Shown here: piece by piece, positions 30,064-53,956 of the stretch
Layout: every line of letters begins with the position of its first letter
Numbering within the stretch: position 1 is the stretch's first letter
Origin: Nocardiopsis sp. YSL2
Lineage (GTDB): Bacteria; Actinomycetota; Actinomycetes; Streptosporangiales; Streptosporangiaceae
Direction: 5' to 3'
DNA: 64,000 bases
Assembly: GCF_030555055.1 (NCBI RefSeq)
Contig: NZ_JAMOAO010000001.1
Span: forward strand, 248,001-312,000
Translations under genes and position numbers: made by a program
The notes under the pieces: generated by a model
Databases searched by the model: none
What the model was told of the DNA's origin: nothing
Seen by the model: only the letters and a program-made list of their open reading frames with translations

Positions 30064-30138
30064 GAACACGGCCGACTCTCGCTCGCTGCGCCGCAGGTCA
30101 CAGGGGTGTGAGGGAGGGAGTCGGCCGGTAAGCCGGAT
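30064..30138. repeat. att1: left outer attachment site (copy of rnpB 3' end)
   Basis: 75 bp matching att3 (53882-53956) at 73 positions; the last 26 bases equal the 3' end of rnpB. It marks the left boundary of the integrated region. Identity stops exactly at CCGGAT, after which this copy reads AATG and the rnpB copy TCTG. Confidence 0.88.
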
Positions 30139-30246
30139 AATGACGGTACACCCTCCCCCACCTGCGCAGATACCAATCGCATAGCGGTTGACCTGCGCTT
30201 TCGTATTCCCGCTTAGACCCGGCTTGACCGGGCAAGTCTGGGGTTC

Positions 30247-30267
30247 ATCCGGGATGGTTCCGGGACG
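30247..30267 (+). repeat. Integrase arm-site pair, left end of element A
   Basis: ATCCGGGATG and, 11 bp later, TTCCGGGAC. They match the pair ATCCGGGATA / ATCCGGGATA at 43256-43276 at the other end of the element. Confidence 0.55.
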
Positions 30268-30340
30268 GGCGTGACGGCCGACCGCCCCTCTCGGAAGGCG
30301 CGCGGCCGATGCCCGAGCACTCCCCTACTCCTGACACAGA

Positions 30341-30380
30341 ACGGCCCCGGTTCGGTGGTGCGTCCACCGGCCGGGGCCGT
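30341..30380 (-). terminator. Hairpin after the truncated HTH gene
   Basis: ACGGCCCCGG (30341) pairs with CCGGGGCCGT (30371); an inner stem CGGTGG/CCACCG continues it. It lies just past the minus-strand stop at 30393. Confidence 0.6.
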
Positions 30381-30392
30381 CGTGCTCTCTGG

Positions 30393-30586
30393 CTACTTGA
30401 GGTCGGTCCGGGCACCGCGGCCTGGCCGCTCGAAGTTGATGATCGTCTCGGGCTTCCATGCCGGCGACCGACCGAAGGTCTTGTCGGGCGCGGGGATCTC
30501 CCCCCGCTTGCGCGAACGGTAGCTGTGGATGGTCTGCGGGCTGACGCCCCAATGTTCGGCAACGTCGGCGACGTCCCAGATGGACC
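30393..30586 (-). pseudogene. 5'-truncated HTH (MerR/excisionase-like) gene
   Basis: The last 63 or so codons of a helix-turn-helix protein (IWDVADVAEHWGVSPQTIHS, then a Trp-Lys-Pro-Glu-Thr-Ile segment), ending at the TAG at 30393. The family is a common small DNA-binding protein of actinomycete elements. No start codon exists: the frame runs back into the opposite-strand Tra gene at about 30584, so the first few codons and the promoter are gone. The join to the Tra fragment looks like a deletion end point. Confidence 0.6.
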
Positions 30587-31347
30587 GGCGGTACGGGCTC
30601 CTGCGCAAGCTCGGGGTCCCGAAGGTCACCGAGGACATCGCGGAACGGCACGACCTCCACCCGATCGTCGTGCACATCGACGAGGTCCAGTACTGGTCTG
30701 CGGGCGGGGACAAGAAGTCGAACGAGAAGTTCATGGTGATGCTCGCGGACATCGTCGGCCGGGGCCGCGCGGCCGGGATCATCACGGGGGTGATCACTCA
30801 GCGGCCCGCGGCGGAGGTGGTGCCGACCCGGCTGCGGGACATCCTGTCGATCCGGTGGGCGCTGCGGTGCACGACCCCGGCGGCATCGGACACAATCCTC
30901 GGTTCGGGCTGGTCGGGCCACGGCTACTCCGCTGCGCTGTTCGAGCCGGACCAGCGGGGCGCCGGCTACCTGCTCGCGGAGGGTTCGACGCCTGCGCAGA
31001 CGCGGGCGGCGTTCATCGACCCGGACCGGGGCGAGTTGCAGGCGTTGGCGGACCGGCCGTATGAGCTGCGCAGGGAGGCGGGGACGCTTCCGGCGACAGC
31101 GGACCGGCCCGAGGTGCGGTTGTTGACGGCGATCCTGGAAGCGATGGTGCATCCGAAGGGCGTCCACACCGCGGACCTGTTGGGGCGTCTGGCCGCGATC
31201 TCCGACGAGTACATCGGGTGGGATGCGGCGAAGCTCGCGGCGACCGTGAAGCCGTTGGGGTTGATCCCCGGGCAGGTCGACCTCGACGGCCGGAACAGGA
31301 ACGGGTACCGGCGTGACCGTGTGCAGGAGACCCTCGACCGGGTGTGA
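30580..31347 (+). pseudogene. N-terminally truncated FtsK/SpoIIIE-type transfer protein
   Basis: A 255-codon remnant of an AICE transfer ATPase. It keeps the Walker B region IVVHIDEVQYW, the post-ATPase helices (VITQRPAAEVVPTRLRDIL) and the C-terminal winged-helix part (VHPKGVHTADLLGRLAAI). The Walker A half, normally some 300-400 residues, is missing. The first available ATG (30580) falls in the junction with the truncated HTH gene, so it could at most make an inactive fragment. An intact protein would pump double-stranded DNA between mycelia. Confidence 0.72.
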
Positions 31348-31372
31348 TCGGGGGTCTACGGCGTTGTCTGGC

Positions 31373-31415
31373 GGGGGTCTAGTTCTAGGGTCTGAGGGCC
31401 TAGAACTAGACCCCC
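31373..31415. promoter_or_regulatory. Perfect 17-bp palindrome beside tra (clt- or terminator-like)
   Basis: GGGGGTCTAGTTCTAGG (31373-31389) is followed after 9 bases by its exact complement (31399-31415). Seven CTAG tetramers occur between 31379 and 31462. The site lies 26 bp downstream of the tra remnant, where transfer loci (clt) of actinomycete elements are usually found. It could also be a strong terminator. Confidence 0.6.
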
Positions 31416-31503
31416 TGTCTAGGTCCCCAGACCCTCTGTGAGCTGCGATCTAGAGCGGCTAGACCGATTAGAGACACCACCGGAGCACAGCATGTACTGG
31501 CGG

Positions 31504-32226
31504 CTACGTCTCCTCAGGCTCATCCCCCTCGGGAACTTCCGGTTCCGGTTGGTCCTCCACAATCCCGCCGTTGGCGAGGTACTGATAGTCCTCCGGTTTG
31601 AGGCCCAGTGCGATGCCCAGCTTCACATGGTGAGGAAGGTTTTCCAGACCTCCGTTGCTGAGGAGGTCCTGAGTGACTGCATCCTCAATCTTCCGACGGC
31701 TCTTTCCCTCACCTAGTTGCCTGACCGCACCAAGAACCGTGGGGAGCAAGACTGTGAACGCTTGGAGTACCGCAGGGAGGGCATCGATCCACGTCTCGAT
31801 GGGGTTTGAGTATGTGACGCGCTTCACGACGGGTGCGAATGACATTGTCCGTGCCACGCGCTCTTCCACCATCCCGCTCAGTGCCTGAGACACGGAATAT
31901 TGGGCTCCAAGGACCGACATCGACGGATACCCGATGTGCCGGAAGCTCTTCAACGCGTCGACATCAAAACCAAAACTCTCCGCTGCCCAATGAAGTTCGC
32001 TTACGAGGCCTCGATCCGCATCAGCGACCATACGCAACAGCCGATGGGTCACCTCGCTCCGGACTTGTTCCTCAGCAACTTCCTGAGCTAGCTCAAGCAG
32101 GGCATCAAGGGAACCGAGATGGCGGATGATGTCGTCGAGGCCAACTTCCGCTCCCAAATTTGCGCGCCACTGGAGAGTCACGGGTCCGTCGGCTGGCCAC
32201 ACTCGGATGCCGCGTTCTGGGTTCAT
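31504..32226 (-). CDS. Hypothetical protein of element A (240 aa)
   Basis: Unrecognised. It has 240 residues and lower GC than the chromosome. The N-terminus is amphipathic (MNPERGIRVWPADGPVTLQW) and a helical middle follows. There is a hydrophobic stretch at about residues 150-170 (WIDALPAVLQAFTVLLPTVL) and a strongly acidic Pro/Glu tail. No catalytic motif is seen. The start at 32226 lacks a good ribosome-binding site. One membrane-associated helix and an isolated position inside an element make it a cargo candidate. Confidence 0.6.
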   Translation of the reverse strand: MNPERGIRVWPADGPVTLQWRANLGAEVGLDDIIRHLGSLDALLELAQEVAEEQVRSEVTHRLLRMVADADRGLVSELHWAAESFGFDVDALKSFRHIGYPSMSVLGAQYSVSQALSGMVEERVARTMSFAPVVKRVTYSNPIETWIDALPAVLQAFTVLLPTVLGAVRQLGEGKSRRKIEDAVTQDLLSNGGLENLPHHVKLGIALGLKPEDYQYLANGGIVEDQPEPEVPEGDEPEET

Positions 32227-32285
32227 ACCGGCGGACTACCCACCTGCGAGCGATGCGGTAGCTGTCGGCGACCAGTCTTGACCTC

Positions 32286-32452
32286 ATGTCCGACGAAGCC
32301 TTGCCGCACATAGACGATCTTGCGGCGCGAGCAGGTCGAGGGATTACCCCTGCCACTGTGGCGAGACCCGGCTTCGGTTGGATCTTCTCATGCCGCGCCA
32401 CCGTCGGGCGTGCCAAGATCGGGGAAACCCCACCCCCAAGGAGTCTCAATGA
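32286..32452 (+). pseudogene. Short frame interrupted by the IS110-type element (tentative)
   Basis: A frame from the ATG at 32286 (MSDEALPHIDDLAARAGRG) runs into the transposon and stops there. A second start, an ATG at 32449 with AAGGAG 5 nt upstream, is cut by the insertion after one codon. Either may be the 5' end of a gene broken by the IS. Weak evidence. Confidence 0.25.
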
Positions 32453-33854
32453 AGTTGTCAAGCCGCCAGCGGGACCGGTGGGACGGGGGTGAACACCCGC
32501 CCGTCCCGCAACAAAGCCCACAGCACGCTCACCCTGCGCCGGGCCAGAGCGATCACCGCCTGGACGTGCTTGAGCCCCTCGCCCCGCTTCTTCTGATAGA
32601 ACTCCCGGCTGGGCCCCTCGACCTTGAGCGCCGAGAGCGCGGACATGAAGAACACCCTGCGCAAAGCCCGGTTGTAGCGTTTGGGCCGGTGCAGATTACC
32701 GGTCCGTCTCCCGGAGTCCCGGGCCACCGGCACCAACCCGGCAGCCGAAGCCAGGTGCCCGGCGTCCCGGTAGGCGGTCAGGTCACCGGCGGCGGCGATG
32801 AACTCCGCCCCCAGGACGGGACCGAACCCGGGCACCGACTCGATGATCTTCGCGGCGTCCAGTTCGCGGAAGACCTCGCGAATCTGCTTCTCGGTGTCCT
32901 TGAGCCGGTCGTCCAGGTCCAAGACCTGGCGGGCCAAGTCCGCCACGATCGACGCGGTCACGGCCTCGCCGGGCACCTGCGTGCGCTGGGAAGCGGCCGC
33001 TTCCATCGCCTTGTCAGCGATCGACTCGGCGCTGCGCACACCCCGCTTGCGCAGCCAGGTCCCCAACCGTGCCCGGCCGATCTTGCGCAGAGCGCGAGGG
33101 GTCTGGAATCCGGTGAGCAGCACCAGCGGCCCCTTGGCGCCGGAGTAGTCGAAGGCGCGCTCCAAAGCGGGGAAGATCGAGCACAAAGCGTCGCGCAGCC
33201 GGTTGACGGCCCGCACCCGGTCGGCTGTCAGGTCGTTGCGGTAGCCGGTCAGCACGGCCAGGGACCGCACGGTCTCGGCGGGCACGTCGATGGGCGCGAA
33301 GTCGCAGCGGTGGCGCACCGTTTCGGCGATGACATAGGCGTCGCGGGCGTCGGTCTTGGCCTCGCCCCGGTAGGCGCCGGCCATCCGGTTGACGGTGCGT
33401 CCGGGCACGTACAGGGGTTGTTGGCCGTGCGCGGCCAGCAGCGCGAGCAGCAGAGCCGAGGCGGTGCCGCAGATGTCGATGCCCCACACGGCCTCGTCGG
33501 CCAGGGCCAGGATCTCGACGAGGGCGTCCAGGATCGAGTTCTCGTCGTTGGCGATCTTGCTCGACCACAGGGTGGTGCCGGTGTCGTCGACCACGGTGGC
33601 CCAGTGGTGGGCCTTGCCCGCGTCGATGCCGACCCAGACTCGTTGACGCGAGGGTTCCATCCGCTCCTCCAGGCGTTCGACGTCATGCCGTCGGCCCGTG
33701 GAACACCCCGTCGTCATCTCCGTAAACAGCGACTCGTGCGCAGATCTCAATCAGCGATCGGAGCGCCCCGGAGGGACGGGCGGCCACTCCTGGCAAGCCA
33801 CTGAAGGCAAGCCCCCATCAGCCACACCCGGCCCTCCCGGGCCACTTAACAACT
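32453..33854. mobile_element. IS110-family insertion sequence
   Basis: About 1.4 kb delimited by AGTTGTCAAG (32453) and CTTAACAACT (33845), a 9/10 inverted match. It contains one transposase gene on the minus strand and about 190 bp of non-coding DNA upstream of it. In the IS110 family such a non-coding end encodes the bridge RNA that selects target and donor. The limits are inferred from the short inverted repeat, not from a target duplication. Confidence 0.6.
32458..33660 (-). CDS. IS110 family transposase
   Basis: A 400-residue recombinase. The N-terminal DEDD (RuvC-like) domain has VGIDAGKAHHWATVV at its start. The C-terminal Transposase_20 domain has SVPGFGPVLGAEFIAAAGD and LASAAGLVPVARDSG, the region with the catalytic serine. 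It excises and inserts its element guided by a bridge RNA. The ATG at 33660 (MEPSRQRVWVGID) fits the family's usual N-terminus. The gene appears complete. Confidence 0.92.
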   Translation of the reverse strand: MEPSRQRVWVGIDAGKAHHWATVVDDTGTTLWSSKIANDENSILDALVEILALADEAVWGIDICGTASALLLALLAAHGQQPLYVPGRTVNRMAGAYRGEAKTDARDAYVIAETVRHRCDFAPIDVPAETVRSLAVLTGYRNDLTADRVRAVNRLRDALCSIFPALERAFDYSGAKGPLVLLTGFQTPRALRKIGRARLGTWLRKRGVRSAESIADKAMEAAASQRTQVPGEAVTASIVADLARQVLDLDDRLKDTEKQIREVFRELDAAKIIESVPGFGPVLGAEFIAAAGDLTAYRDAGHLASAAGLVPVARDSGRRTGNLHRPKRYNRALRRVFFMSALSALKVEGPSREFYQKKRGEGLKHVQAVIALARRRVSVLWALLRDGRVFTPVPPVPLAA

Positions 33855-33866
33855 TACGGAGCCCCC

Positions 33867-34454
33867 ATGACCCCCGAATGGCTCGCCGCGATCGGCAGTG
33901 TCGGAACGCTGGTCGTCGCGCTCGTCCTTATCATCAAGCAGTACGGGGCTTTGTCCGCCACCGTCAGGCTCTCCAAGAAGCAGGACGAAGCTCTCGTGGC
34001 CACCACGAAGGCGCTCAACGACGAGATGGCGTGGCGGCGCAACGAGGCTGATCGTCAACGACAGCAGCAAGCTCGCTCGGTCCGCCTCAGGCTGTTCCGT
34101 GGATGGCGACCCGGCGATGACGACGAGCCCCTCATCCTCGCGTTCCTCAAAGGCTCTGGACTTCACCCCAGCGGACTCACTACCAGGATGGTCGTCGCGA
34201 ACAACAGCGACGGACCGATTCGCGACATCACCGCGACCTCGGGTGACGCACCGATCCGATGCGGCATCGTGCAAGGAGAGCGGCGTATGTCCGCGCCGCC
34301 GCTGAATGCCGTCACCGCTGGTGGTTTCGCCCGGCTGTACTGGCTGAAGGAAGTCGATGAGCAAGACATCTCTGTGTACTTCACCGATGAGTCCGGTGTG
34401 CGCTGGCGGTTGCATCACCGCGACGGACTGTCCGAGGTACCCGGGGACAAGTGA
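33867..34454 (+). CDS. Hypothetical membrane protein of element A (195 aa)
   Basis: One transmembrane helix at residues 5-23 (WLAAIGSVGTLVVALVLII), then a coiled-coil-like segment rich in Lys, Glu and Gln, then a soluble beta-rich C-terminal domain of about 110 residues. It starts at the ATG at 33867 with GGAG 6 nt upstream. The family is not recognised. It is the first gene after the IS element, so its original upstream context is lost. The architecture (membrane anchor plus coiled coil) resembles small proteins often carried as cargo. Confidence 0.65.
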   Translation: MTPEWLAAIGSVGTLVVALVLIIKQYGALSATVRLSKKQDEALVATTKALNDEMAWRRNEADRQRQQQARSVRLRLFRGWRPGDDDEPLILAFLKGSGLHPSGLTTRMVVANNSDGPIRDITATSGDAPIRCGIVQGERRMSAPPLNAVTAGGFARLYWLKEVDEQDISVYFTDESGVRWRLHHRDGLSEVPGDK

Positions 34455-34530
34455 CTGAGTATCCGCTTCCGGCCGCGGGCCTGGGATAGTCCTTGTCCTG
34501 CGTTGACCTACCGAGTTCTACGGTGGCGGC

Positions 34531-34725
34531 ATGAGCGAAAGCATGAAACCGGTGAAGGACGAGATCATGGACGGCCTCCATGACCACGTGCTCCACACGG
34601 ATCAGTCCATCTCGAATGAGGACAGAGAGGTCGTCAACGAGGGCGTCCAGAAGCCTGTGGCCGAACAGGTGGACCCGGTTCGGAATGCGATGTCGGAAGT
34701 TGCCCAGGACCCGCCTGCGGACTGA
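34531..34725 (+). CDS. Small acidic protein (64 aa)
   Basis: A 64-residue acidic protein (MSESMKPVKDEIMDGLHDHV), helical, without cysteines or membrane segments. It ends just before a compact terminator at 34731, which supports a real transcription unit. Function unknown. Confidence 0.5.
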   Translation: MSESMKPVKDEIMDGLHDHVLHTDQSISNEDREVVNEGVQKPVAEQVDPVRNAMSEVAQDPPAD

Positions 34726-34730
34726 ACGTT

Positions 34731-34754
34731 GGCCCCTCTTCGGAGGGGCCTTCT
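34731..34754 (+). terminator. Intrinsic terminator
   Basis: GGCCCCTC-TTCG-GAGGGGCC followed by TTCT: an 8-bp stem with a stable tetraloop. Confidence 0.75.
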
Positions 34755-34890
34755 GCGTGTTCGGGGACCTTCCGCCCATACCGACCTCGCCCCCTCGGTT
34801 TCTCGTCCGCATGTGGCTATCCTGCGCCCCTCGCTGACACCCCGGCGTTGCGTGCCATCAACTGGGGAAGTGCGATGGATCATCAGCCAC

Positions 34891-35154
34891 ATGGAGAAGA
34901 AAGAACAGGTCCTCGTGGCCATCTACCACATCGAGCAGTCTCGGGCCCATGCCCCGTTCCCCATTACGCCAGCTGAGGTCGTCACCAAGACGTCTCTGTC
35001 CGAGTACCGCATCAAGTCAGCGTTTCTGTGGCTCAAGGAGAAGGGGTGGCTGCGTGGGGTGAAGCCCGGCGCGTTCGGTCCGGTCCACTTCTTTGATGGT
35101 TTGACGCCGGAAGGTCGCGCGGAGGCAGAGCGCCTGATCGCCGAGCTCGGTTGA
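34891..35154 (+). CDS. Small winged-helix-like protein (87 aa)
   Basis: An 87-residue protein (MEKKEQVLVAIYHIEQSRAH). Its helix-turn-helix and wing pattern (TPAEVVTKTSLSEYRIKSAFLWL, then GWLRGVKPGAFGPVHFFDG) looks like a winged-helix DNA-binding or adaptor domain. The start at 34891 is a judgement call, as no strong ribosome-binding site is seen. Confidence 0.55.
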   Translation: MEKKEQVLVAIYHIEQSRAHAPFPITPAEVVTKTSLSEYRIKSAFLWLKEKGWLRGVKPGAFGPVHFFDGLTPEGRAEAERLIAELG

Positions 35155-35272
35155 TGGTTCGCCGTGCGCCCGTGCGGGTCGGGCGCCCAGTCACAACACG
35201 GCCGCTCCCCTGACACGGCGAGGGCCCCGCCATACGCTGATGGTGCGACCCGATCAGCAAGGCGGAGCCCTC

Positions 35273-36460
35273 ATGCCAAAGCCTACCCCCGCAGTGCCGG
35301 CGTCCTTCGGTGAAACCGTCCGTGCCCACCTCGCCGAACAGCGCGTGTCCGTGCGTGAACTCGCCCGCCGTACCCGGTTCGACCACGCATACCTATCCCG
35401 TGTGCTGGCAGGGAAGCAGCGTCCCTCACCCGCGCTCGCTGACGCCGTCGACCAGGAGCTCAACGCCGGCGGGAACCTCGTCGCCCTGGTCGACGCACCA
35501 CCTCCGTCCGACGACCTGGCAGAGACCGGCGAGGTCTTGGAGTTCATGCGGCGCGCGGAAACCTCAGAGCTCGGGGCAGGCACCCTCGACGTCCTCGGGA
35601 GCGCCGTAGATCAACTCTGCCGCGACTACCCGACCGCCCCGGGGCCGGTCCTGCGGGACCGCTCCAAGAAGCTCATGGGACACGCCCTGGGGCTGTTGGA
35701 GCGCCGCACCACCCTCGCTGAACACCGGGAGCTCCTCGTCCACGTGGGATGGCTGTCCGCGCTCCTTGGGTGCGTGCACTTTGACGTTGGCGACCGGCTC
35801 GCCGCGGAGACCGCCCGCAAGATGGCGCACCAGTTGGGCGAGCAGGCCGGGCACGGCCAGATCGTCGCGTGGGCGTATGAGATCACCGCGTGGTTCGCGC
35901 TGTCCGAGGGCCGGTACCAGGCGGTGGTGACCGCGGCTGAGGCCGGCCGCGCACACGCCGGGGTGTCCAGCGGTGGTGTGCAACTCCTCGTTCAGCAGGC
36001 CAAGGCGTCAGCGAAGTTGGGTGACGACCACGCGCACCGGCTGCTCGGTGAGGCCGGGAAGATGCTCGCCCAGTTGCCTGCCACGGACCAACCCGAACAC
36101 CACTTCGTGTTCGACCCTGACAAGCTCACCAGCCATGAAGCGACGGCGTACACCTGGTTGGGGTGGGACGAGGCCGCTGGCGAGTACGCGTCGGAGATGG
36201 CGGACCGGTACCAGCGCGAGTACCGGCCCATGAGGTTGGCTACGGCCCGTCTGAATCTGGGCATCCTCGCGGCGCGTCGGGGCGCGTTGGACGAGGCTGT
36301 GTCCTTGGGGGAAGCGGCGTTCGAGTCCGAGCGCCGGTCTGGTGCGCTGACGTCCTGGGCGCGCGGCCTGCTCTCGGAGTTGGAGAACCGCTACCGGGGT
36401 GAGCGCCTGGTGGTGGACTACCGGGAGCGGCTGGCGTTGGAGGCGGGCGGGGGCCGGTGA
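35273..36460 (+). CDS. XRE-family regulator with TPR-like domain
   Basis: A 395-residue protein. Residues 10-70 are a lambda-repressor-type helix-turn-helix (VRELARRTRFDHAYLSRVLAG), followed by about 300 residues of helical TPR-like repeats. Such proteins are common in actinomycetes and often respond to a peptide or small molecule. The ATG at 35273 has GGAG 5 nt upstream. A small gene follows on the same strand. Confidence 0.82.
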   Translation: MPKPTPAVPASFGETVRAHLAEQRVSVRELARRTRFDHAYLSRVLAGKQRPSPALADAVDQELNAGGNLVALVDAPPPSDDLAETGEVLEFMRRAETSELGAGTLDVLGSAVDQLCRDYPTAPGPVLRDRSKKLMGHALGLLERRTTLAEHRELLVHVGWLSALLGCVHFDVGDRLAAETARKMAHQLGEQAGHGQIVAWAYEITAWFALSEGRYQAVVTAAEAGRAHAGVSSGGVQLLVQQAKASAKLGDDHAHRLLGEAGKMLAQLPATDQPEHHFVFDPDKLTSHEATAYTWLGWDEAAGEYASEMADRYQREYRPMRLATARLNLGILAARRGALDEAVSLGEAAFESERRSGALTSWARGLLSELENRYRGERLVVDYRERLALEAGGGR

Positions 36461-36533
36461 CTGTGGTGACGGATCGGGTTGTCACCACTGGTCGTACTCG
36501 TGTCACCGGCCGCGGGCGCCGATGCTCGACGCC

Positions 36534-36767
36534 ATGGACACCACCACGAAGCAGGATCAACAGGAGCTTGAACGGCTCCGGTCGGAGTTCGGAGACGAGT
36601 ATGCGCTGTGGCGGTCGGTTGAGGGCCGGTACTGGATCGCAACGGCCCGAGACAAACGGGTCTGCTCTGAGCCGACGTTGATGGAGGAGAGCGCCGCGGC
36701 GTTGGAGGAGAAGCTGCGTGCGCCGGGGGATCGTGTGGCGGTCCCGTTCCAGCGGGAGGCGCTGTGA
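36534..36767 (+). CDS. Small hypothetical protein (77 aa)
   Basis: Seventy-seven charged residues (MDTTTKQDQQELERLRSEF), with an aromatic core YALWRSVEGRYWIATARD. A slightly earlier ATG (36522) is possible. It ends with GTGA, overlapping the next frame at 36764, so the two are probably co-translated. Confidence 0.55.
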   Translation: MDTTTKQDQQELERLRSEFGDEYALWRSVEGRYWIATARDKRVCSEPTLMEESAAALEEKLRAPGDRVAVPFQREAL

Positions 36768-37035
36768 CCCTCGAAGAGCTCACACGGCTGACTGCGCCTC
36801 GACGAGCCGAGCGTCCCGTGCGCTTGGTCGAAGGCGGGCGGTTGCCTCGACGTAGGCCGGATGCACCGAGGTGTACGACGAGTTGTCCGAGGTGCTGCGG
36901 ATGCGGCCCCGGCACGCAGGGGAGGCCTACGAAGCATTGCGGGATGCGGACCGGCTACTGAGTGAGCTCGATCGACTCTTGCGCGGAGGTGAGAAGCTTC
37001 CGGAGCCGTGGCGCAGTGCGGGCCGTTCGGTATGA
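36764..37035 (+). pseudogene. Small gene, apparently split by a frameshift
   Basis: The GTG at 36764 opens a frame (VTLEELTRLTAPRRAERPV) that loses coding character after about 35 codons. A second frame from the GTG at 36871 then reads sensibly (VYDELSEVLRMRPRHAGEAY) through to the stop at 37035. Both halves look like one helical protein of about 88 residues broken by a one- or two-base indel near 36865. Alternatively they are two overlapping tiny genes. Confidence 0.4.
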
Positions 37036-37174
37036 CCCTCTCGTGAGACGTTCATTGGCATTTCCGCAGGTCAGAAGGTAGACCAATCCAGGCGTTCGGA
37101 GTGGTCTACCTTCGCCGCGTGCTATGTACGGTTATCGACCGTTTCTGACCTCCGGTAAACGCGCTTATCGGAGG

Positions 37175-48173: not shown

Positions 48174-48313
48174 TGACCTGCGAGTTCTGCTCCAAGAAGG
48201 CGACCATCAACGCTTTCTCCGGCAAGGAGTCGTCCTGGGTGTGCAACGAGCACTACTCCGACATGGAAGCCAACTTCGCCGGGGACCTGCGCGGCCTGCG
48301 GCGCTGGAAGTGA
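48173..48313 (+). CDS. Zinc-ribbon microprotein 2 (46 aa)
   Basis: MTCEFCSKKATINAFSGKES; the second ligand pair is a Cys-x-x-His (CNEH). It overlaps the transfer gene stop and the next GTG start. Confidence 0.65.
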   Translation: MTCEFCSKKATINAFSGKESSWVCNEHYSDMEANFAGDLRGLRRWK

Positions 48314-48423
48314 TCACCGTGTACTGGTGCTCGCGCTGCTGCAAGGACGCCTACACCAAGACCCTGACCACCAACGAGTGGGTGTGTGAGGACCACTACG
48401 CCGAGCTGGGGTGGACGCCGTGA
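48310..48423 (+). CDS. Zinc-ribbon microprotein 3 (37 aa)
   Basis: MITVYWCSRCCKDAYTK, then CEDH: a CxxC and a Cys-x-x-His pair. The GTG start overlaps the preceding stop (GTGA). Confidence 0.65.
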   Translation: MITVYWCSRCCKDAYTKTLTTNEWVCEDHYAELGWTP

Positions 48424-48536
48424 TCTGCGAGCTGTGCGGCAAGGGCGGCGCCCGGTGGGTGCACAACCGCACCGGAGGGGCCTACCTCGCCTGCCCTGCC
48501 TGTGAGTGGCAGTACTTCGACTACGAGTGGAGCTGA
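48420..48536 (+). CDS. Zinc-ribbon microprotein 4 (38 aa)
   Basis: MICELCGKGGARWVHN, then CPAC: two CxxC pairs. GTGA overlap with the preceding gene. Confidence 0.65.
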   Translation: MICELCGKGGARWVHNRTGGAYLACPACEWQYFDYEWS

Positions 48537-48539
48537 ACC

Positions 48540-49229
48540 ATGAGACGCGTCCTGGCGGTCGCTGTGGACTGGGGTCCAATCCTCATCCTGGCCGCAATCG
48601 CCGCTGCTGGCTCCTTCACCCACATCCGGGACCTGGCCGAACAGTCGGGACAGCACGGATGGATGGCGTGGGCCATTGCGGTCTCCATCGACCTGACATG
48701 TGTGATGGCCGCTCGGGAGCGCCAGCGAGACACAACGGACCGCATGTGGCCGACCGTGGTCCTGGTCGGGGCGGTGGTATTGACCCTGGCGGCGAACCTG
48801 GCCACGGCTCAGCCCACGGTGTGGGGCTGGATCATGGCGGCCGTTCCGGCTGCTGCGTTCCTGGTCGCGATGTCGATGCTGGAGCGCCGCGCCGGCCACC
48901 GGCCCCCACCCGAACCGGCTGAGGCTGATCCCGCGTCCGGAGTCCAGGACCGGGAGGAAGTGCGGGTCACGGAGGTGCACTGGCACCGGCAGGAGACGCA
49001 GCCTGCGGCCGATTCCGTCCCGCAACCGGCGCCCGCCCCCGTGGCACCTACGCACGACGTGGCCCCGGCCGCCGTGGAACAGGGTCACCCGCTGGCGTCC
49101 TACGCCGCCCAGGTCGCCCAGGACTACCGCGTCACCCACGGACGCGAGATCACCGTGACCGCTCTGCGCTCCCGGCTCGGGGTGTCCGAACAGATCGCGG
49201 CGACCCTGCGAGACCAGGTCACCGCCTGA
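48540..49229 (+). CDS. DUF2637/Spd-type spread membrane protein
   Basis: A 229-residue protein with four transmembrane helices (about residues 9-25, 42-60, 70-88 and 95-112) and a cytoplasmic Pro/Ala linker. A C-terminal helix-turn-helix-like segment (ITVTALRSRLGVSEQIAATLR) follows. DUF2637 proteins sit next to tra in AICE and in plasmids, where they assist intramycelial spread. GGAG lies 7 nt before the ATG. Confidence 0.82.
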   Translation: MRRVLAVAVDWGPILILAAIAAAGSFTHIRDLAEQSGQHGWMAWAIAVSIDLTCVMAARERQRDTTDRMWPTVVLVGAVVLTLAANLATAQPTVWGWIMAAVPAAAFLVAMSMLERRAGHRPPPEPAEADPASGVQDREEVRVTEVHWHRQETQPAADSVPQPAPAPVAPTHDVAPAAVEQGHPLASYAAQVAQDYRVTHGREITVTALRSRLGVSEQIAATLRDQVTA

Positions 49230-49245
49230 GGAGAAAGGTGGAGAG

Positions 49246-49383
49246 ATGAAGGACTGGATGTGCCTGGACTGTGCTGGCACCGGCCGGGTCCGGGACCGGG
49301 AGTGGGGCGGGTGGAGCCTGCTGGTCCGTAAGTACACCGCCTGCGGCACCTGCGAGGGGACCGGAACGGAGAAGAAGCGATGA
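49246..49383 (+). CDS. Zinc-ribbon microprotein 5 (45 aa)
   Basis: MKDWMCLDCAGTGRVR, then CGTCEGTGTEKKR: two CxxCxGTG motifs. GGAG precedes the ATG closely. ATGA overlap with the next gene. Confidence 0.68.
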   Translation: MKDWMCLDCAGTGRVRDREWGGWSLLVRKYTACGTCEGTGTEKKR

Positions 49384-49520
49384 CCACCAAGGACTGCCCC
49401 AACTGCCAGGGGACCGGATACGTCACCGAAGAGGTGCCCATGCGCCGCGTCCTGCGCGGACAGCAGAGCTGGTGCCTGAACTGCCTGGGCACCGGCAAGA
49501 CCCCCGCTGACGAGAACTGA
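49380..49520 (+). CDS. Zinc-ribbon microprotein 6 (46 aa)
   Basis: MTTKDCPNCQGTGYVTEE, then CLNCLGTGKTP: two CxxCxGTG motifs. Confidence 0.68.
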   Translation: MTTKDCPNCQGTGYVTEEVPMRRVLRGQQSWCLNCLGTGKTPADEN

Positions 49521-49540
49521 CACGAGGAGAAACGAAGACC

Positions 49541-49690
49541 ATGGAGACCTACATCATCAACTGCGTTCGGTGCAACGGCGCCGGAACCATCATCAGCGAG
49601 AAGCGCGGCCTGCTGCTCACCCGCCGCCAGACGTGCCCCGAGTGCTCCGGCACCGGCACCGGCAAGAAGACCATCACGGTTGACCTCTGA
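49541..49690 (+). CDS. Zinc-ribbon microprotein 7 (49 aa)
   Basis: METYIINCVRCNGAGTI, then CPECSGTGTGKKT: two CxxC motifs of the DnaJ-like type. Stop and next start overlap in TGATG. Confidence 0.68.
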   Translation: METYIINCVRCNGAGTIISEKRGLLLTRRQTCPECSGTGTGKKTITVDL

Positions 49691-49791
49691 TGCCGGACAG
49701 CCACCTGTGCGCCACCTGCTACGGCCTCGGGGTCCTCAGCGAGGGCGTCACCTGTGCCGACTGCTCCGGCTGCGGCCTCACGTCTGTCTGA
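49690..49791 (+). CDS. Zinc-ribbon microprotein 8 (33 aa)
   Basis: MPDSHLCATCYGLGVLS, then CADCSGCGLTSV. Ends at the first hairpin leader. Confidence 0.65.
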   Translation: MPDSHLCATCYGLGVLSEGVTCADCSGCGLTSV

Positions 49792-49795
49792 CCCC

Positions 49796-49839
49796 GTGGG
49801 CTGGCACTGCTTCCACACACCTGCTGCCACCCGCGACGG
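49796..49839 (+). promoter_or_regulatory. Conserved-loop hairpin, copy 1
   Basis: GTGGG(C)TGGCA pairs with TGCCACCCGC around a loop carrying CTGCTTCCAC. It is followed by CACCTGACCAACCAACCCAA and then the next small gene. Confidence 0.55.
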
Positions 49840-49894
49840 ATCACCTGACCAACCAACCCAACACGCGAACACCGAACGAGAAGGAGAGTCCCTG

Positions 49895-49969
49895 ATGGGC
49901 TGCTGGGAGAACCCGACCAAGAAGACCGAGGACGCCACCAAGGTGACCGTGGGGAGGCCTACCCGATGA
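49895..49969 (+). CDS. Tiny protein (24 aa), no zinc motif
   Basis: MGCWENPTKKTEDATKVTV; AAGGAG lies upstream and the stop overlaps the next gene (ATGA). It may act only as a coupled leader peptide. Confidence 0.45.
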   Translation: MGCWENPTKKTEDATKVTVGRPTR

Positions 49970-50070
49970 GCTGGCGACTGGAGACCTGCGGCCACTGCGG
50001 TGAGCTGGTCAGCTACAGCGGACCCCTCGATTCCCACCCGGCGCGCTGCTTCAAGTGCCCCAACCGGTAG
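49966..50070 (+). CDS. Zinc-ribbon microprotein 9 (34 aa)
   Basis: MSWRLETCGHCGELVSYSG, then CFKC: two CxxC pairs. Confidence 0.6.
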   Translation: MSWRLETCGHCGELVSYSGPLDSHPARCFKCPNR

Positions 50071-50081
50071 GAGGCTCCGCC

Positions 50082-50183
50082 ATGGCATGCACCGAATGCG
50101 GAGGCGTGCGGTTCGCGCTCTTCTTCGAGAACGGCCGTGAGGGCCGTACCTGCCTGACCTGCTACACGGACCACTACCGCTAG
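50082..50183 (+). CDS. Zinc-ribbon microprotein 10 (33 aa)
   Basis: MACTECGGVRFALFFENG, then CLTC: two CxxC pairs. Ends before the second hairpin leader. Confidence 0.62.
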   Translation: MACTECGGVRFALFFENGREGRTCLTCYTDHYR

Positions 50184-50260
50184 ATCCCGGGCCATCCGGT
50201 TGATGGCCATGCCGCCCCACGGGGCGGTGTGGGGACCAACCGGTCCACTCGATCGAAATC

Positions 50261-50302
50261 CCGGGGTGCGGCGCTGCTTCCACACATGCCACCGCACCCC
50301 GG
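50261..50302 (+). promoter_or_regulatory. Conserved-loop hairpin, copy 2
   Basis: A perfect 11-bp stem CCGGGGTGCGG (50261-50271) with CCGCACCCCGG (50292-50302) around a 20-nt loop with CTGCTTCCACACATG. The tail CACCTACCCAACGAACCCAA matches copy 1. Confidence 0.65.
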
Positions 50303-50362
50303 TTCACCTACCCAACGAACCCAACACGCGAATGCAAGGAACGAAAGGGGCCCGACCAGCCT

Positions 50363-50770
50363 ATGACATCCTCCGCTTTCCCCACGGTGCTCGCCGCGAT
50401 GACGGCCGCACACCACGTCGGTGACTACCTCCTGCAGAACGATCACCAGGCACAGCACAAACCCACCTCGTGGTCGGCCAACCAGGCGCACGTGGCCAGT
50501 TACCACCTCGCCCAGATCACCGCCCTGACGCTGGCTTCCCGCACGCTCGGGCTGCGGCTCTCCCCTGCCCGGCTGGCCGCTGGTGTGGCCGTGTCCTGGG
50601 TGACGCACAGCATCATCGACCGGCGGTGGCCCGTGCGCTGGTGGATGAACCACACCGGCTCCTCCGACTTCTACCGGGCCGGTGGCGCTGCGCACGTCGA
50701 CCAGGCCATGCACCACGCCGCCCTGTTCATGGCCGCGCTCGTGGCCTCCTCCGGCGGTGACCAGTCGTGA
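50363..50770 (+). CDS. DUF3307-like membrane protein
   Basis: A 135-residue protein (AAHHVGDYLLQNDHQAQHKP, then SYHLAQITALTLAS), with two or three hydrophobic segments and several conserved histidines. The His-x-x-x-Asp-Tyr pattern resembles DUF3307 membrane proteins. It is coupled by GTGA to the next zinc-ribbon gene. Function unknown, possibly in element spread. Confidence 0.6.
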   Translation: MTSSAFPTVLAAMTAAHHVGDYLLQNDHQAQHKPTSWSANQAHVASYHLAQITALTLASRTLGLRLSPARLAAGVAVSWVTHSIIDRRWPVRWWMNHTGSSDFYRAGGAAHVDQAMHHAALFMAALVASSGGDQS

Positions 50771-50934
50771 AGTGCCCGAGCTGCAACAGCAGCAACGTCA
50801 CGGAGTACAGCCGCAACGGCACCTCGCTGGGCTCGGAGTGTCGGGACTGCTCCAACTCCTGGGATGAGGACACCAGCTACCAGGCCTACCTCGATGAGCG
50901 CCGCACCCTCAAACAGTCGGGGTGGTGGTCCTGA
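50767..50934 (+). CDS. Zinc-ribbon microprotein 11 (55 aa)
   Basis: MKCPSCNSSNVTEYSRNG, then CRDCSNSWDEDTSY: two CxxC pairs and an acidic tail. The same Thr-Glu-Tyr-Ser motif recurs in the next gene, so the two are duplicates. Confidence 0.66.
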   Translation: MKCPSCNSSNVTEYSRNGTSLGSECRDCSNSWDEDTSYQAYLDERRTLKQSGWWS

Positions 50935-51041
50935 TGTGCCCGAGCTGCCACGGCGACCAGATCACCGAGTACAGCTACGACGGCGGCACGACCGTCATGG
51001 GATATGAGTGCCGCGACTGCGAGACCACCTGGTCCCCCTGA
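50934..51041 (+). CDS. Zinc-ribbon microprotein 12 (35 aa)
   Basis: MCPSCHGDQITEYSYDG, then CRDCETTWSP. TGATG overlap. A clear paralogue of the preceding gene. Confidence 0.65.
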   Translation: MCPSCHGDQITEYSYDGGTTVMGYECRDCETTWSP

Positions 51042-51057
51042 CCTGAACTGATCCCGG

Positions 51058-51104
51058 CCCCGGTGACGGCGCTGCTTCCACCGCTCCATGCCGCCGCACC
51101 GGGG
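51058..51104 (+). promoter_or_regulatory. Conserved-loop hairpin, copy 3
   Basis: A 13-bp stem (CCCCGGTG, bulged A, CGGCG; with GCCGC-GCACCGGGG type complement) around a loop with CTGCTTCCACC. It lies in the leader of the replication initiator gene. Confidence 0.6.
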
Positions 51105-51136
51105 CCTCACCTACCCCTGAAAGGCCCTGCTTCGTC

Positions 51137-52543
51137 ATGCCCGAACCCGAACACCTCGGCGGCCTCATCGGCCCCGCTCTGGCACGCATCACCGCGATGG
51201 ATGAGAACCACCTCGATCGGTGGATCGACCGCGCCCGCTCCCTGCGCGGCTGTGCCTGCCCCGTCCGCCTGACCGGTGAGACCACGCGCGTGAACGCCGC
51301 CACTGGTGAGCTGCTGTCCCACTACTCCACCGCCAACGAACCGGCCAACGAACTCCTCATGCGCTGCAAGAACCGGCGCGCCTCCCGCTGCCCCTCCTGC
51401 TCGGAGGAATACCGGGGCGACACCTACCACCTGGTCAAGGCCGGTGTCGTGGGCGGAGACAAGGGCGTGCCCGCCTCGGTTGGACTCCACCCCCGGGCGT
51501 TCATCACCCTGACGGCTCCCTCCTTCGGCCCTGTCCACCAAGGCCCCGGCAAGGACGGCCGCTCCCGCGTGTGCCACCCCCGCAGGAAGGGCCCGGCCTG
51601 CTTCAAGCGCCACCGCGCCGACGACCCGGCCATCGGGCAGCCGATCGACCACACCGCCTACGACTACGTCGGCCACGTCCTGTGGCACGCACACACCGGT
51701 GAGCTGTGGCGCCGCTTCACCCTCTACCTGCGCAACCACCTGGCCTCCGCCGCCGGCCTTTCCCGGACGGAGTTCTCCAAGCGCGTCCGGATCTCCTACG
51801 CCAAGGTCGCGGAGTTCCAGGCCCGGGGCGCGGTCCACTTCCACGCCGTGATCCGCCTCGACGGCTACACCAAGGACCCCAACGCCTGGCCGCCGCCTCC
51901 AGTGTGGGCCAGCCTCGACATGCTCACCGCGGCTGTGGACTCGGCCGCCCGCGCGGTCTCGGTCACCTCCCCCGAGGTCAACGGACGGACCTGGCCCCTG
52001 GTCTGGGGTGAGCAGGTGGACGTGCGCCCGATCGAAAGCTTCGGCCCCGACCAGGCCCTCACCGACACGGCCGTAGCCGGGTACATCGCCAAGTACGCGA
52101 CCAAGGCCGCTGAGGACACCGGCACCCTGGATCGGCGTATCCACGACATCGACCACGTGGACATGACCGGTGTGCGTCCGCACGCGGCCCGTCTGATCTA
52201 CACGTGCTGGCGGCTGGGCAACCCCCGCCTCTACCCCCAGTTGGAAGACCTCAAGCTCCGCACCTGGGCGCACATGCTCGGGTTCCGGGGGCACTTCTCC
52301 ACCAAGTCACGCCGCTACTCCACCACGCTCGGGGCGCTCCGTCAGGTCCGCGCGGACTACGCGGCCGGTCGCCCCTGGGACTCCGAGACGTTCACCCCGC
52401 CCGTGGTCGAAGACGACTCCTCCACGCTCGTGCTGACGAACTGGCGCTACCTCGGGCAGGGGCTCACTCCCGGAGAGCTGGCGTTGGCCTCCCTGGTCAC
52501 CGATATAGGTCGCTCAACCGAAGACGCGGAGGTGGCCCGGTGA
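51137..52543 (+). CDS. RepSA-type rolling-circle replication initiator
   Basis: A 468-residue initiator. The cysteine cluster CKNRRASRCPSCSEEY, the HUH metal motif AVHFHAVIRLDG (His234, His236) and the tyrosine motif VAGYIAKYATK (Tyr316/Tyr320) are all present, as in pSAM2 RepSA. It nicks the element's double-strand origin during replication of the excised form. It is translationally coupled (GTGA) to xis. The ribosome-binding site is weak and sits behind the third hairpin, so translation may be structure-controlled. Confidence 0.88.
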   Translation: MPEPEHLGGLIGPALARITAMDENHLDRWIDRARSLRGCACPVRLTGETTRVNAATGELLSHYSTANEPANELLMRCKNRRASRCPSCSEEYRGDTYHLVKAGVVGGDKGVPASVGLHPRAFITLTAPSFGPVHQGPGKDGRSRVCHPRRKGPACFKRHRADDPAIGQPIDHTAYDYVGHVLWHAHTGELWRRFTLYLRNHLASAAGLSRTEFSKRVRISYAKVAEFQARGAVHFHAVIRLDGYTKDPNAWPPPPVWASLDMLTAAVDSAARAVSVTSPEVNGRTWPLVWGEQVDVRPIESFGPDQALTDTAVAGYIAKYATKAAEDTGTLDRRIHDIDHVDMTGVRPHAARLIYTCWRLGNPRLYPQLEDLKLRTWAHMLGFRGHFSTKSRRYSTTLGALRQVRADYAAGRPWDSETFTPPVVEDDSSTLVLTNWRYLGQGLTPGELALASLVTDIGRSTEDAEVAR

Positions 52544-52716
52544 AGACCCTCGATCGCCTGTGGACCCTCGAAGAGACGTCCGTCTATCTCGGTGTGCCGG
52601 TCAAGACCCTCTACCAGTGGCGCTACCTGCGCACCGGCCCTCCCTCGCACCGGGTTGGCCGCCATGTCCGCTACGAACCGACCGAGGTCCGCGCCTGGGT
52701 CCTGGAACAGGACTGA
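52540..52716 (+). CDS. xis: Excisionase (Xis), HTH_17 type
   Basis: A 58-residue protein (VYLGVPVKTLYQWRYLRTGP, then SHRVGRHVRYEP). The GTG at 52540 overlaps the RepSA stop (GTGA). Xis directs the integrase toward excision. Confidence 0.88.
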   Translation: MKTLDRLWTLEETSVYLGVPVKTLYQWRYLRTGPPSHRVGRHVRYEPTEVRAWVLEQD

Positions 52717-52725
52717 GGTGCACTG

Positions 52726-53859
52726 ATGGCTCGTGTCCGAGACCTCTGGATGCGTAAGGTCAAGCACCCCGACGGGTCGGTGACCAAGGAAAAGACCACC
52801 CGCTACGGCAAGGGCAAGCGCTACTTGGCAGTGTGGCTCGATCCGAGTGGGGATGAGGCCACCCAAGCGTTCCAGCGCAAGATCGACGCTGAGAACCATG
52901 CGTCCGTCATGGAAGCGGACCGGCTACGCGGAGCCTACGTGGACCCTCGTGCCGGGAAGGTGGGCCTCCAGGAGTACGCGGAGACCCGCTGGCTTCCCCA
53001 ACTCGTCCACGTGGCGGAGGGAACCAAAGAGACCTATGAACGGCACCTACGCCACCGCGTCTACCCCGCGTTCGGCAAACGCGAGATCGGCAGCATCACC
53101 CGGGCAGACGCCAAGTCCTTCGTAGCCCGACTGAACGCCGATCCAGGGTTGGCGAACACTACCGTCCACACGGCGTTCGCCACCTTGCGCATTGTCATGC
53201 AGGCCGCCGTGGACGACGAGATCATCAACGCCAACCCGTGCTCGCGGGTCAAGCTGCCCAGACTCGGTGACAGGGTCATCGACCCTCTTCCGGTCGAAGC
53301 CGTGCGGGACCTGGCCGACGCGATCACGCCTCGCTACCGTGTCGCGGTCTTCCTCGGTGCGGGCGCGGGCCTTCGTCGGGGTGAGGCCCTGGGGCTGACC
53401 ATTCCGCGCATCGCCTTCGACAGGCGCCACGTGGACATCCGGGTCCAAGCCCAGAAGGGGAGGCTGGTAGAGCTCAAGACCAAGTACTCACGGCGCATCG
53501 TGCCCGTGGATGACGTGGTCCTCGAAGAGGTGCGACGGCACATGGAGCTCTACGCACCTGCCCCAGGGAACGTGCTGATCAGCAACACGTGGAAAGCCGT
53601 GGCCAAACCGTCCGCGTTCAACTCGGCATGGTCCCGAGCTGCGGGCAAGGTCGGCTTGCCAGAAGGAACGCGCTTCCACGACCTGAGGCACTTCTACGCC
53701 TCGGCACTCATCGCGGCCGGAGTGAACCCGAAGGCCATTCAGCGCCGGATGGGGCACGCCTCGATCACGGAGACGTTCGACACCTACGGACACCTGTTCC
53801 CAGATCACGAGGAACTCGGACGCGGAGCGATCGACCTGCTGCTTCGCGCTCCCAGCTGA
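52726..53859 (+). CDS. int: Tyrosine site-specific integrase (element B)
   Basis: A 377-residue integrase with catalytic Arg217, His318, Arg321, His344 and Tyr354 (FDTYGHL). It is similar along its whole length to the element A integrase (GAYVDP, FATLRI.MQAAVDDEII, FHDLRHFYASA), so both probably act on the same rnpB core. It starts at the ATG at 52726, 10 bp after xis, and ends just before the arm sites and att3. Confidence 0.93.
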   Translation: MARVRDLWMRKVKHPDGSVTKEKTTRYGKGKRYLAVWLDPSGDEATQAFQRKIDAENHASVMEADRLRGAYVDPRAGKVGLQEYAETRWLPQLVHVAEGTKETYERHLRHRVYPAFGKREIGSITRADAKSFVARLNADPGLANTTVHTAFATLRIVMQAAVDDEIINANPCSRVKLPRLGDRVIDPLPVEAVRDLADAITPRYRVAVFLGAGAGLRRGEALGLTIPRIAFDRRHVDIRVQAQKGRLVELKTKYSRRIVPVDDVVLEEVRRHMELYAPAPGNVLISNTWKAVAKPSAFNSAWSRAAGKVGLPEGTRFHDLRHFYASALIAAGVNPKAIQRRMGHASITETFDTYGHLFPDHEELGRGAIDLLLRAPS

Positions 53860-53867
53860 TCCGTCAT

Positions 53868-53886
53868 CCGGAACAGAACCGGAACA
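53868..53886 (+). repeat. Integrase arm-site pair, right end of element B
   Basis: CCGGAACA at 53868 and 53879, 11 bp apart, matching the pair at 43445 and 43456. Confidence 0.6.
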
Positions 53887-53956
53887 CGGCCGACTCTCGC
53901 TCGCCGCACCGCAGGTCACAGGGGTGTGAGGGAGGGAGTCGGCCGGTAAGCCGGAT
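53882..53956. repeat. att3: right attachment site, inside the rnpB 3' end
   Basis: 75 bp repeated as att1 with two mismatches; the last 26 bases are the 3' end of rnpB. Integration leaves rnpB complete. Confidence 0.9.

Follow-up and report, generated by a model that had tools for sequence, protein, structure and literature searches.

A likely accretion array at the RNase P RNA gene of Nocardiopsis sp. YSL2: two integrative elements and, probably, the scar of an older one at the rnpB 3′ end

Introduction

How did some 24 kb of DNA bracketed by copies of the end of rnpB, the RNase P RNA gene, come to lie beside this gene in Nocardiopsis sp. YSL2, and how many mobile elements took part? The question is raised by a window of 64,000 nt (contig NZ_JAMOAO010000001.1 of assembly GCF_030555055.1, positions 248,001 to 312,000 of the forward strand; all coordinates below count from its first letter). 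An earlier sequence-only reading of this window had proposed that three copies of the rnpB 3′ end (att1, att2 and att3) bracket two tandem elements, A and B, with an integrase gene adjoining the right att site of each, and the repeats and integrase genes were located accordingly. Comparison with related genomes makes it very probable that the region is an accretion array at the rnpB 3′ end, consisting of a complete-looking element B, a decayed element A and, at att1, the scar of an older element C. The elements are of a known kind, actinomycete integrative and conjugative elements (AICEs) and their accretions, and lie at an attachment site for which the literature search found no report, a description that is well supported.

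The attachment site

The match to the class A RNase P RNA model is full-length (Table 1), so the identification of rnpB, already called firm in the sequence-only reading, stands; all positions of its helix P1 are paired. Since rnpB is encoded on the minus strand, its 3′ end at position 53931, which is the attachment site, points left, at the elements. The 28-bp core that had been proposed as common to all three sites is part of a 29-nt unit, composed of the last 28 nt of rnpB and one further nucleotide, which is identical at att2 and att3 and slightly diverged at att1. When rnpB and the following 49 nt were searched against the 6.42-Mb assembly itself, these three att places and no other were found at E ≤ 0.001. 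A longer repeat is shared by att1 and att3 (30064-30147 versus 53882-53965, 94% over 84 nt). Its first 75 nt had been described as identical; the long shared block is there, but it has two mismatches (73/75).

The 3′ end of each integrase gene abuts an rnpB 3′ end via a short segment between stop codon and core, the P′ arm: the stop codon of IntA (43248) precedes the att2 core by 61 nt and that of IntB (53859) the att3 core by 70 nt. Both arms contain a tandem repeat that can be read directly from the sequence, CCGGGAT..CCGGGAT at 43258-43275 in A and CCGGAAC..CCGGAAC at 53868-53885 in B. In 1-kb windows, the mean G+C content is 0.66 between 30 and 54 kb (range 0.531-0.722) and 0.735 outside (range 0.675-0.803). 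The 64-kb window contains no tRNA or tmRNA gene.

The P′ arm of B also carries an inverted 9-nt copy (53888-53896) of part of the 3′ strand of rnpB P1 (53936-53944). This copy mimics the P1 5′ strand, and the rnpB transcript could pair with the arm; by eye, similar letters occur in other B-type arms.

Table 1. Features of the rnpB-proximal region of the window, in order of position
Feature	Position	Strand	Evidence or remark
SulP-carbonic anhydrase fusion gene, left-flank marker	26066-28435	plus	PF00916 + PF00484
Relic of chromosomal corA 3′ end, start of host flank	29989-30049		61 nt, 80% to G031 corA end
Probable scar of third element C, B-type P′ arm	30040-30111	minus	nhmmer 46.3 bits, E 3.1e-14, model 2-76
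att1 core	30112-30140	minus	27/29 vs att2/att3
Element A	30112-43310		13.2 kb, att spacing 13198, decayed AICE-like
C-terminal fragment (255 aa) of A's FtsK/SpoIIIE	30580-31347	plus	91% to G027
IS110-family transposase inside A	32458-33750	minus	PF01548 2.4e-46, PF02371 2.7e-20
HTH / NsdA-family TPR-like regulator	35240-36460	plus	PF13560 3.1e-07; NF053720 100 bits, cut-off 75
AAA_25 ATPase of A	39474-40793	minus	PF13481 2.2e-20
HTH_17 protein of A	41266-41565	minus	PF12728 3.9e-08
IntA, tyrosine integrase, 367 aa	42145-43248	plus	PF00589 5.7e-20
P′ arm of element A	43249-43309	minus	A end adjoins rnpB in G027 (260 nt, 93%); arm alone in G029 (52 nt, 90%)
att2 core, junction A (left)/B (right)	43310-43338	minus	29/29 nt identical to att3 core
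Element B	43310-53930		10.6 kb, att spacing 10620, intact-looking pSAM2-type AICE
GntR/UTRA regulator	45501-46658	minus	PF00392 2.8e-18, PF07702 1.6e-17
SCO3933-family regulatory protein	46311-46718	plus	NF051478 85 bits, cut-off 80
FtsK/SpoIIIE (TraB-like) DNA translocase	46830-48173	plus	PF01580 9.2e-26
DUF2637 protein	48540-49229	plus	PF10935 1.5e-13
RepSA-type replication initiator	51137-52543	plus	PF20199 533.5 bits (gathering 34)
HTH_17 / excisionase-like protein, 58 aa, probable Xis	52540-52716	plus	PF12728 6.8e-10
IntB, tyrosine integrase, 377 aa	52726-53859	plus	PF00589 3.9e-21
P′ arm of element B, IntB stop to core	53860-53929	minus	homologous segment at rnpB in other type-B elements/scars
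att3 core (last 28 nt of rnpB + 1 nt)	53930-53958	minus	29-nt repeat family
rnpB, RNase P RNA class A	53931-54314	minus	RF00010, 292.5 bits, E 1.3e-94, model 1-367 of 367

Elements B and A

Judged by its gene content, element B looks like a complete AICE of the pSAM2 type. It combines an integrase with flanking direct repeats, a replication initiator and a single FtsK/SpoIIIE translocase; AICE replication initiators belong to the RepSA, RepAM or prim-pol classes. In the alignment of integrases, R217, H318, R321, H344 and Y354 of IntB are invariant, and we take these residues to be catalytic. The initiator scores 507.8 bits against the RepSA model NF041486 (equivalog cut-off 700) and the translocase 47.9 bits against NF041214 plasmid_TraB, far under its cut-off of 800. 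Because both fall under the NCBIfam equivalog cut-offs, B is regarded as a relative of pSAM2 and not as pSAM2. The HTH_17 protein, which exceeds the Pfam cut-off, reaches 25.4 bits against TIGR01764, under the cut-off of 28.8. Position would suggest that the DUF2637 protein is Spd-like and the GntR/UTRA regulator KorSA-like; a DUF3307 protein is also encoded.

With pSAM2-type AICEs, B thus shares the end-placed tyrosine integrase, the HTH/Xis-like gene, RepSA, the one FtsK/SpoIIIE protein and the GntR and SCO3933-family regulators, but its attachment site is the rnpB 3′ end. Integration at a tRNA 3′ end, which is usual for AICEs and not obligatory, does not apply to B. The three functions asked of AICEs in the available passages of PMC3218068, recombination, translocation and replication, are all represented in B.

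Element A is, from its remaining genes, a decayed AICE-like element that has lost most of its FtsK and gained an IS110 insertion. Its nearest relative seen, A′, lies directly beside rnpB in the genome of a close relative (G027), where the IntA homologue is 98% identical; IntA and IntB share 56% identity. A and A′ have DNA blocks of 3999, 2172, 889 and 354 nt in common, at 86-96%. The FtsK open reading frame (ORF) of A′ encodes 730 aa, and A lacks 5.7 kb of A′ that include the FtsK N-terminal part, whereas 3.8 kb of A containing the IS110 transposase have no DNA counterpart in A′. At the place of the AAA_25 stretch, A′ has a D5-like protein (D5_N 4.6e-33), and the two stretches share no DNA match. 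As to a replication initiator, the scanned ORFs of A yield the AAA_25 ATPase only, with no Rep family among their Pfam matches. Thus, A has an integrase and att repeats and no intact FtsK translocase; it is called AICE-like and decayed because only the 255 C-terminal FtsK residues remain.

A further integrase, 72% identical to IntA, is followed after its stop codon by an A-like arm region at locus L085 (G299:C13). The rnpB core was not found in this locus and rnpB of G299 lies on another contig, so that L085 is perhaps a relic or a relocated copy.

Near-empty sites, elements and probable scars in other Nocardiopsis genomes

The same site was followed through 40 Nocardiopsis genomes, the window's own (G000) included. 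The gene for SulP, in which a sulfate permease is joined to a carbonic anhydrase domain, is the neighbour of rnpB in most of them and served as left-flank marker. SulP and rnpB are 0.28-1.6 kb apart in 30 of the 40 genomes and 2.9-3.8 kb apart in G029, G031 and G037. The distance increases to 10.4-13.5 kb in G001, G003 and G032, to 23 kb in G027 and to 25.5 kb in the window; SulP was not found in G016 and G020, within the 2.8 and 2.1 kb examined. A complete integrase adjoins rnpB in five of the 40 genomes, G000, G001, G003, G027 and G032. Homologues of element B are present in G001, G003 and G032, with a second core 10.8, 9.9 and 11.2 kb, respectively, from the rnpB core. G027 contains an array of its own, which from rnpB outward consists of A′ (15.7 kb between cores), a decayed element of B type (4.3 kb) and an att site with an integrase relic.

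For genomes without a complete integrase, a DNA profile of the B-type P′ arm was searched against the rest. Five right ends went into the profile, those of G000, G001, G003 and G032 plus a G028 copy that is not located at rnpB. The arm was found at rnpB in 15 such genomes (G004, G005, G008, G011, G012, G016, G019, G023, G025, G026, G028, G031, G034, G035 and G037), the weakest match having E 6e-6; in 106 control stretches (upstream, reversed or far downstream), nothing better than E 4 was obtained. The match reaches integrase codons in ten of the 15 (G004, G005, G008, G011, G016, G023, G025, G026, G031 and G037) and covers the arm only in the other five; in G016, the codons form a piece of their own at a distance of 580 nt. 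An A-type arm (52 nt, 90%) without integrase match is present at rnpB in G029. Past elements are therefore represented by scars in 16 of the 40 genomes, and present or past elements together in 21, while neither the B-type stretch nor the A-type arm was found at rnpB in the remaining 19. The accretion hot spot suspected in the sequence-only reading, for which empty sites in relatives had been named as the check, is borne out by the 30 near-empty sites and the 21 genomes with elements or scars.

Two further sites show such remains. At L072 (G028:C36, around 12320-12750), a solitary rnpB 3′ core is accompanied by a B-type P′ arm and about 106 C-terminal integrase residues; rnpB of G028 lies on a different contig, with SulP 438 bp downstream. 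At L038 (G037), 2.3 kb separate rnpB from a second 28-nt core; this interval contains integrase relics and represents an element in late decay.

The outer end of the array

The repeat shared by att1 and att3 extends some 48 nt beyond the core, and the nature of this stretch determines how many elements are to be counted. These 48 nt are present at rnpB in many congeners, where by eye a tandem repeat (TTTGCTCC..TTTGCTCC or TTCCGG..TTCCGG) and the 3′ end of an integrase gene often come next, and in other B-type elements they are placed between rnpB and the integrase 3′ end. The corresponding repeat at att1, GGAGCAAACGAGGAGCGAAC, is read at 30048-30067. The extra 48 nt are thus probably the P′ arm of B-type elements and not captured host flank, to judge from their position. 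At the outermost att site of G027, the same arm is followed outward by an integrase C-terminal relic (profile match 2-134), whereas the match at att1 comprises the P′ arm only (positions 2-76).

Directly outward of this arm, the host flank begins with a relic of corA, the first ~10 nt of which overlap the outer end of the putative scar. In the close relative G031, corA is recognisable by PF01544 (6.8e-62), and G001, likewise closely related, has the same stretch; in both genomes, corA lies between rnpB (or the element) and a homologue of the window gene at 29101-29928. In the window, corA is reduced to 61 nt of its 3′ end. Most likely, as the arm and its surroundings suggest, att1 is the remaining right end of an older third element, C, fused to this corA relic. 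C would once have been a full element; on the simplest reading, a B-type element C was present in an ancestor of the group, and its right end alone persists in the window.

Proposed history and alternatives

According to the proposed history, an element-encoded tyrosine integrase would join the attP copy of the last 28 nt of rnpB to the chromosomal 28 nt. The incoming element would restore the rnpB 3′ end, and the displaced copy would be left at the far end of the element. As each integration would leave a usable core beside rnpB, another element could enter there; repeated entry would push older elements outward. Decay increases outward both in the window (B intact, A damaged, C a scar) and in G027 (A′ intact, the B type decayed, then a scar), which is why outward position probably corresponds to age. 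Integrase action, a crossover inside the 28 nt, the order of arrival and present mobility are points that we infer.

Several observations weigh against this history. The junctions alone also allow A to have entered the left att site of B after B had arrived. No integrase codons are present at att1, where the evidence for C consists of some 72 nt of P′ arm together with the parallels in G027 and G031, and the window's own B end was among the sequences that made up the arm profile. Two more points favour the explanation, which we consider unlikely, that the ~48 nt are old host sequence captured by B, that att1 is the host side and that no more than two elements ever took part. The distal site of G001 has the 48 nt but lacks the arm repeat, and strain-specific letters recur in the 48-nt copies at both ends of one element, a pattern that is clear in G003 and partial in G032. 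Such sharing is not predicted by independent arrival; homologous exchange between the repeats would perhaps explain it. The presence of the stretch directly at rnpB in 19 of the 40 genomes would likewise suit a host origin; 15 of the 19 lack a complete integrase, and five of these 15 show the arm only. However, a host sequence would have to be missing from the 19 genomes in which neither stretch nor A-type arm was found. The 48 nt are often followed by the arm repeat, with integrase 3′ relics in 10 of the 15 genomes, and the outermost copy in G027 retains its integrase relic. In other genera, by eye, integrase loci often have a TGACC-containing segment and an arm repeat in the same place. The capture of rnpB-flanking host DNA by element B, as the sequence-only reading had proposed, is therefore not supported, since the 48 nt hold the arm position in other B-type elements and the match runs into integrase codons in ten genomes that lack a complete integrase.

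Could A and B instead have arrived together as one composite element, with att2 as an internal leftover? They have the same att core and related integrases, and PMC9513070 and PMC3218068 describe tandem elements that excise jointly or are mobilised in cis. Yet A′ adjoins rnpB in G027 with no B between, the decayed B type lying outward; B-type elements occur at rnpB without A in G001, G003 and G032; and each of A and B has its own integrase and P′ arm. A joint arrival is accordingly very improbable. That the 24 kb are vertically inherited chromosome, with repeats produced by chance or duplication, has nothing in its favour and next to no credibility given the 29-nt repeats at a similar distance from two integrase genes, the low G+C content and the SulP-rnpB distance, which is 25.5 kb here and does not exceed 1.6 kb in 30 of the 40 genomes. 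The accretion of B, A and C at rnpB remains the preferred account.

Integrases beside rnpB in other Actinomycetes

An integrase profile made from six sequences matched 52 of 345 genomes of the order at E 1e-60 or better, and the best 30 loci were fetched. Of these 30 best loci, 23 include rnpB, namely five from Nocardiopsis and 18 of the 25 from other genera (14/20 and 4/5 in the Rfam runs). Among the seven without rnpB, L093 and L097 end at a contig edge and L094 has a core copy and an arm. None of the 25 loci from other genera contains a tRNA gene, and, by eye, a P′ arm often with a tandem repeat lies between rnpB and the integrase stop codon. Integrases whose gene 3′ end adjoins the rnpB 3′ end through a P′ arm, IntA and IntB among them, are here named the rnpB-targeting integrase group. 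The statement of the sequence-only reading that use of rnpB is unusual agrees with the literature, as far as the consulted passages go, but not with what the order's genomes show.

For the survey of the class, 15 integrases were combined into a profile, which matched 132 of 394 evenly drawn genomes, and 27 of the fetched loci were run through Rfam. rnpB is present in three of six loci from the window's order (L119, L120 and L122, from genomes counted already) and in six of 21 scanned loci from other orders (L124, L127, L128, L129, L133 and L140), representing four families. ARAGORN detected no tRNA in 26 class-survey loci. A copy of the rnpB 3′ end occurs in nine of the 19 scanned loci without rnpB, exactly in seven and with two mismatches in two, a count made without shuffle control. 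In three of the nine (G356, G525 and G434), rnpB and integrase share a contig, 12.6, 14.9 and 17.0 kb apart, and the integrase occupies the element's far end. For the other six, rnpB is on a different contig or was not found. Loci scored as lacking rnpB may be decayed or relocated copies. L079-L083, where rnpB had been located by other searches, and L121 and L130, from the same genomes as L083 and L095, were not part of the Rfam run.

These nine loci (L125, L126, L135, L136, L138, L139, L141, L143 and L144) display a second architecture, in which the integrase is near the displaced copy of the rnpB 3′ end. The integrase lies 8.3 kb from rnpB in G306, where it has an internal stop codon, and 5.9 kb in G079. 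Further core copies are found on the rnpB contig of G136, G198 and G309, in G198 together with a second integrase.

Integrase sequences were also sought downstream of rnpB in two genera covered in full, g39 and g55. Within ~1.7 kb of P1, tblastn with the integrase set (E 1e-5) gave matches in 22 of 54 g39 and seven of 65 g55 genomes. All 29 are antisense to rnpB and 28 have their nearer end within 250 nt; reversed controls gave 0/119. The best match is the genome's own integrase in the query set in nine of the 29, so that 20 are independent. Plasmid and phage collections contain only distant relatives of IntB (28-33% identity; four and nine records at E 1e-20). A scan of genome contigs returned six loci, three from named Nocardiopsis and three distant ones in metagenome-assembled genomes, with a tRNA in L076 and L077, two of the distant loci. 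A PADLOC run on 10 cargo proteins returned one weak capH match (19.3 bits).

How many integrase lineages use rnpB was approached with a quick tree of 51 integrases (LG+G4). Seven rows were omitted, the duplicates L082, L122 and L130 and the fragments L094, L096, L097 and L103; L119-L121 were not entered. Since they are within arrays at rnpB, IntA of the window (win_A) and L123 were scored as rnpB-proximal, and L142 was put in the far-end group solely because it resembles L141. Six state changes, at least four of them forced by well-supported branches, are required for the 29 rows that have rnpB alongside or linked (shuffled mean 16.3, 0/500 as low). The ten far-end rows require four, at least three forced (shuffled mean 9.3, 0/500 as low), and the 11 rows without rnpB eight (shuffled mean 10.1, 29/500 as low). 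Use of rnpB is thus clustered on the tree, yet more than one integrase lineage appears to use it; as the tree was made by a quick method and contains long rows, it is weak evidence for the number of lineages.

A potential hairpin 5-30 nt past the rnpB 3′ end is seen by eye in L086-L090, with T[CG]TGACC[AT] in the loop and differing stems, in L088 for example GCTCCGCCCC..GGGGCGGAGC. From its sequence, it could be an integrase site, a terminator or both.

Two further ideas were discarded. The first held that element insertion changes the P1 helix of the RNase P RNA, as one P1 position is unpaired in 10 of 25 rnpB genes beside elements. In g55, P1 is not fully paired in 54 of 65 genomes, that is in 7/7 with and 47/58 without a downstream integrase match (Fisher p 0.59), and in g39 in one of 54 (0/22 of those with a match). 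No unpaired position was seen in the P1 duplexes of the 40 Nocardiopsis genomes. The mismatch is a genus trait and not an effect of the elements; the same C-A mismatch occurs in 50 of the 65 g55 genomes (L161, L173-L201 and L231-L265), with or without integrase match. The motif [CT]TGA[CG]C[AT]G, looked for in the first 50 nt past P1, proved weak as a scar marker and was not used for counts. It is found in 10/22 g39 genomes with an integrase match versus 7/32 without (p 0.08), in 2/7 versus 2/58 in g55 (p 0.054) and in 0/54 and 0/65 control windows, and it misses Nocardiopsis sites found by the profile (e.g., G008) as well as the window's own site.

Relation to known systems and significance

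The vast majority of tyrosine-integrase AICEs reside in tRNA 3′ ends, and tandem AICEs occur at tRNA-Lys and tRNA-Arg genes, according to the relevant passages of Ghinet et al. 2011 (PMC3218068), the main text of which does not contain the term 'RNase P'. At a Streptomyces tRNA-Arg gene, the corresponding sections of PMC9513070 describe accretion in which identical direct repeats bracket up to three elements (at least one) that belong to different families, plus a remnant. The present array resembles that one in its multiple elements, remnant and decayed members, but its target is rnpB and its gene-poor scars can be traced by their P′ arm through a genus. Islands in ssrA and tRNA genes, as outlined in the Islander article (PMC4383910), likewise split a stable-RNA gene by a tyrosine integrase and restore it with island sequence, the target here being the RNase P RNA. 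The literature search found no report of an element at rnpB, passing mentions possibly being missed as subscription journals and supplementary tables were outside its scope. In the consulted passages of related papers, rnpB or RNase P appears in reference lists, gene inventories, methods or as a promoter only.

RNase P RNA is essential, and each of the 23 genomes with any rnpB match over the Rfam cut-off has exactly one. An element landing at this essential, single-copy gene is consequently tied to a gene that cannot be lost. We tentatively suggest, as a possibility rated well below even odds, that the rnpB 3′ end joins tRNA and tmRNA genes as the third stable-RNA integration site of general use in Actinomycetes, and that several integrase lineages came to it independently. 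Through successive insertions and their decay, the mobile P′ arm, often able to form a hairpin, would then have become a lasting 3′ flank of rnpB in many genomes and may act as a terminator or 3′-processing signal.

What makes the locus interesting is the gene that is targeted, the fact that different integrases use it, and scars that can be traced. Should rnpB be a frequent target, island-finding tools confined to tRNA and tmRNA genes would miss a class of elements in Actinomycetes, and rnpB integrases could serve as site-specific tools where the tRNA sites of a strain are occupied. From the scars, earlier insertions at a single site can be read, and their presence poses the question of whether mobile DNA now supplies the 3′ flank of a ribozyme gene.

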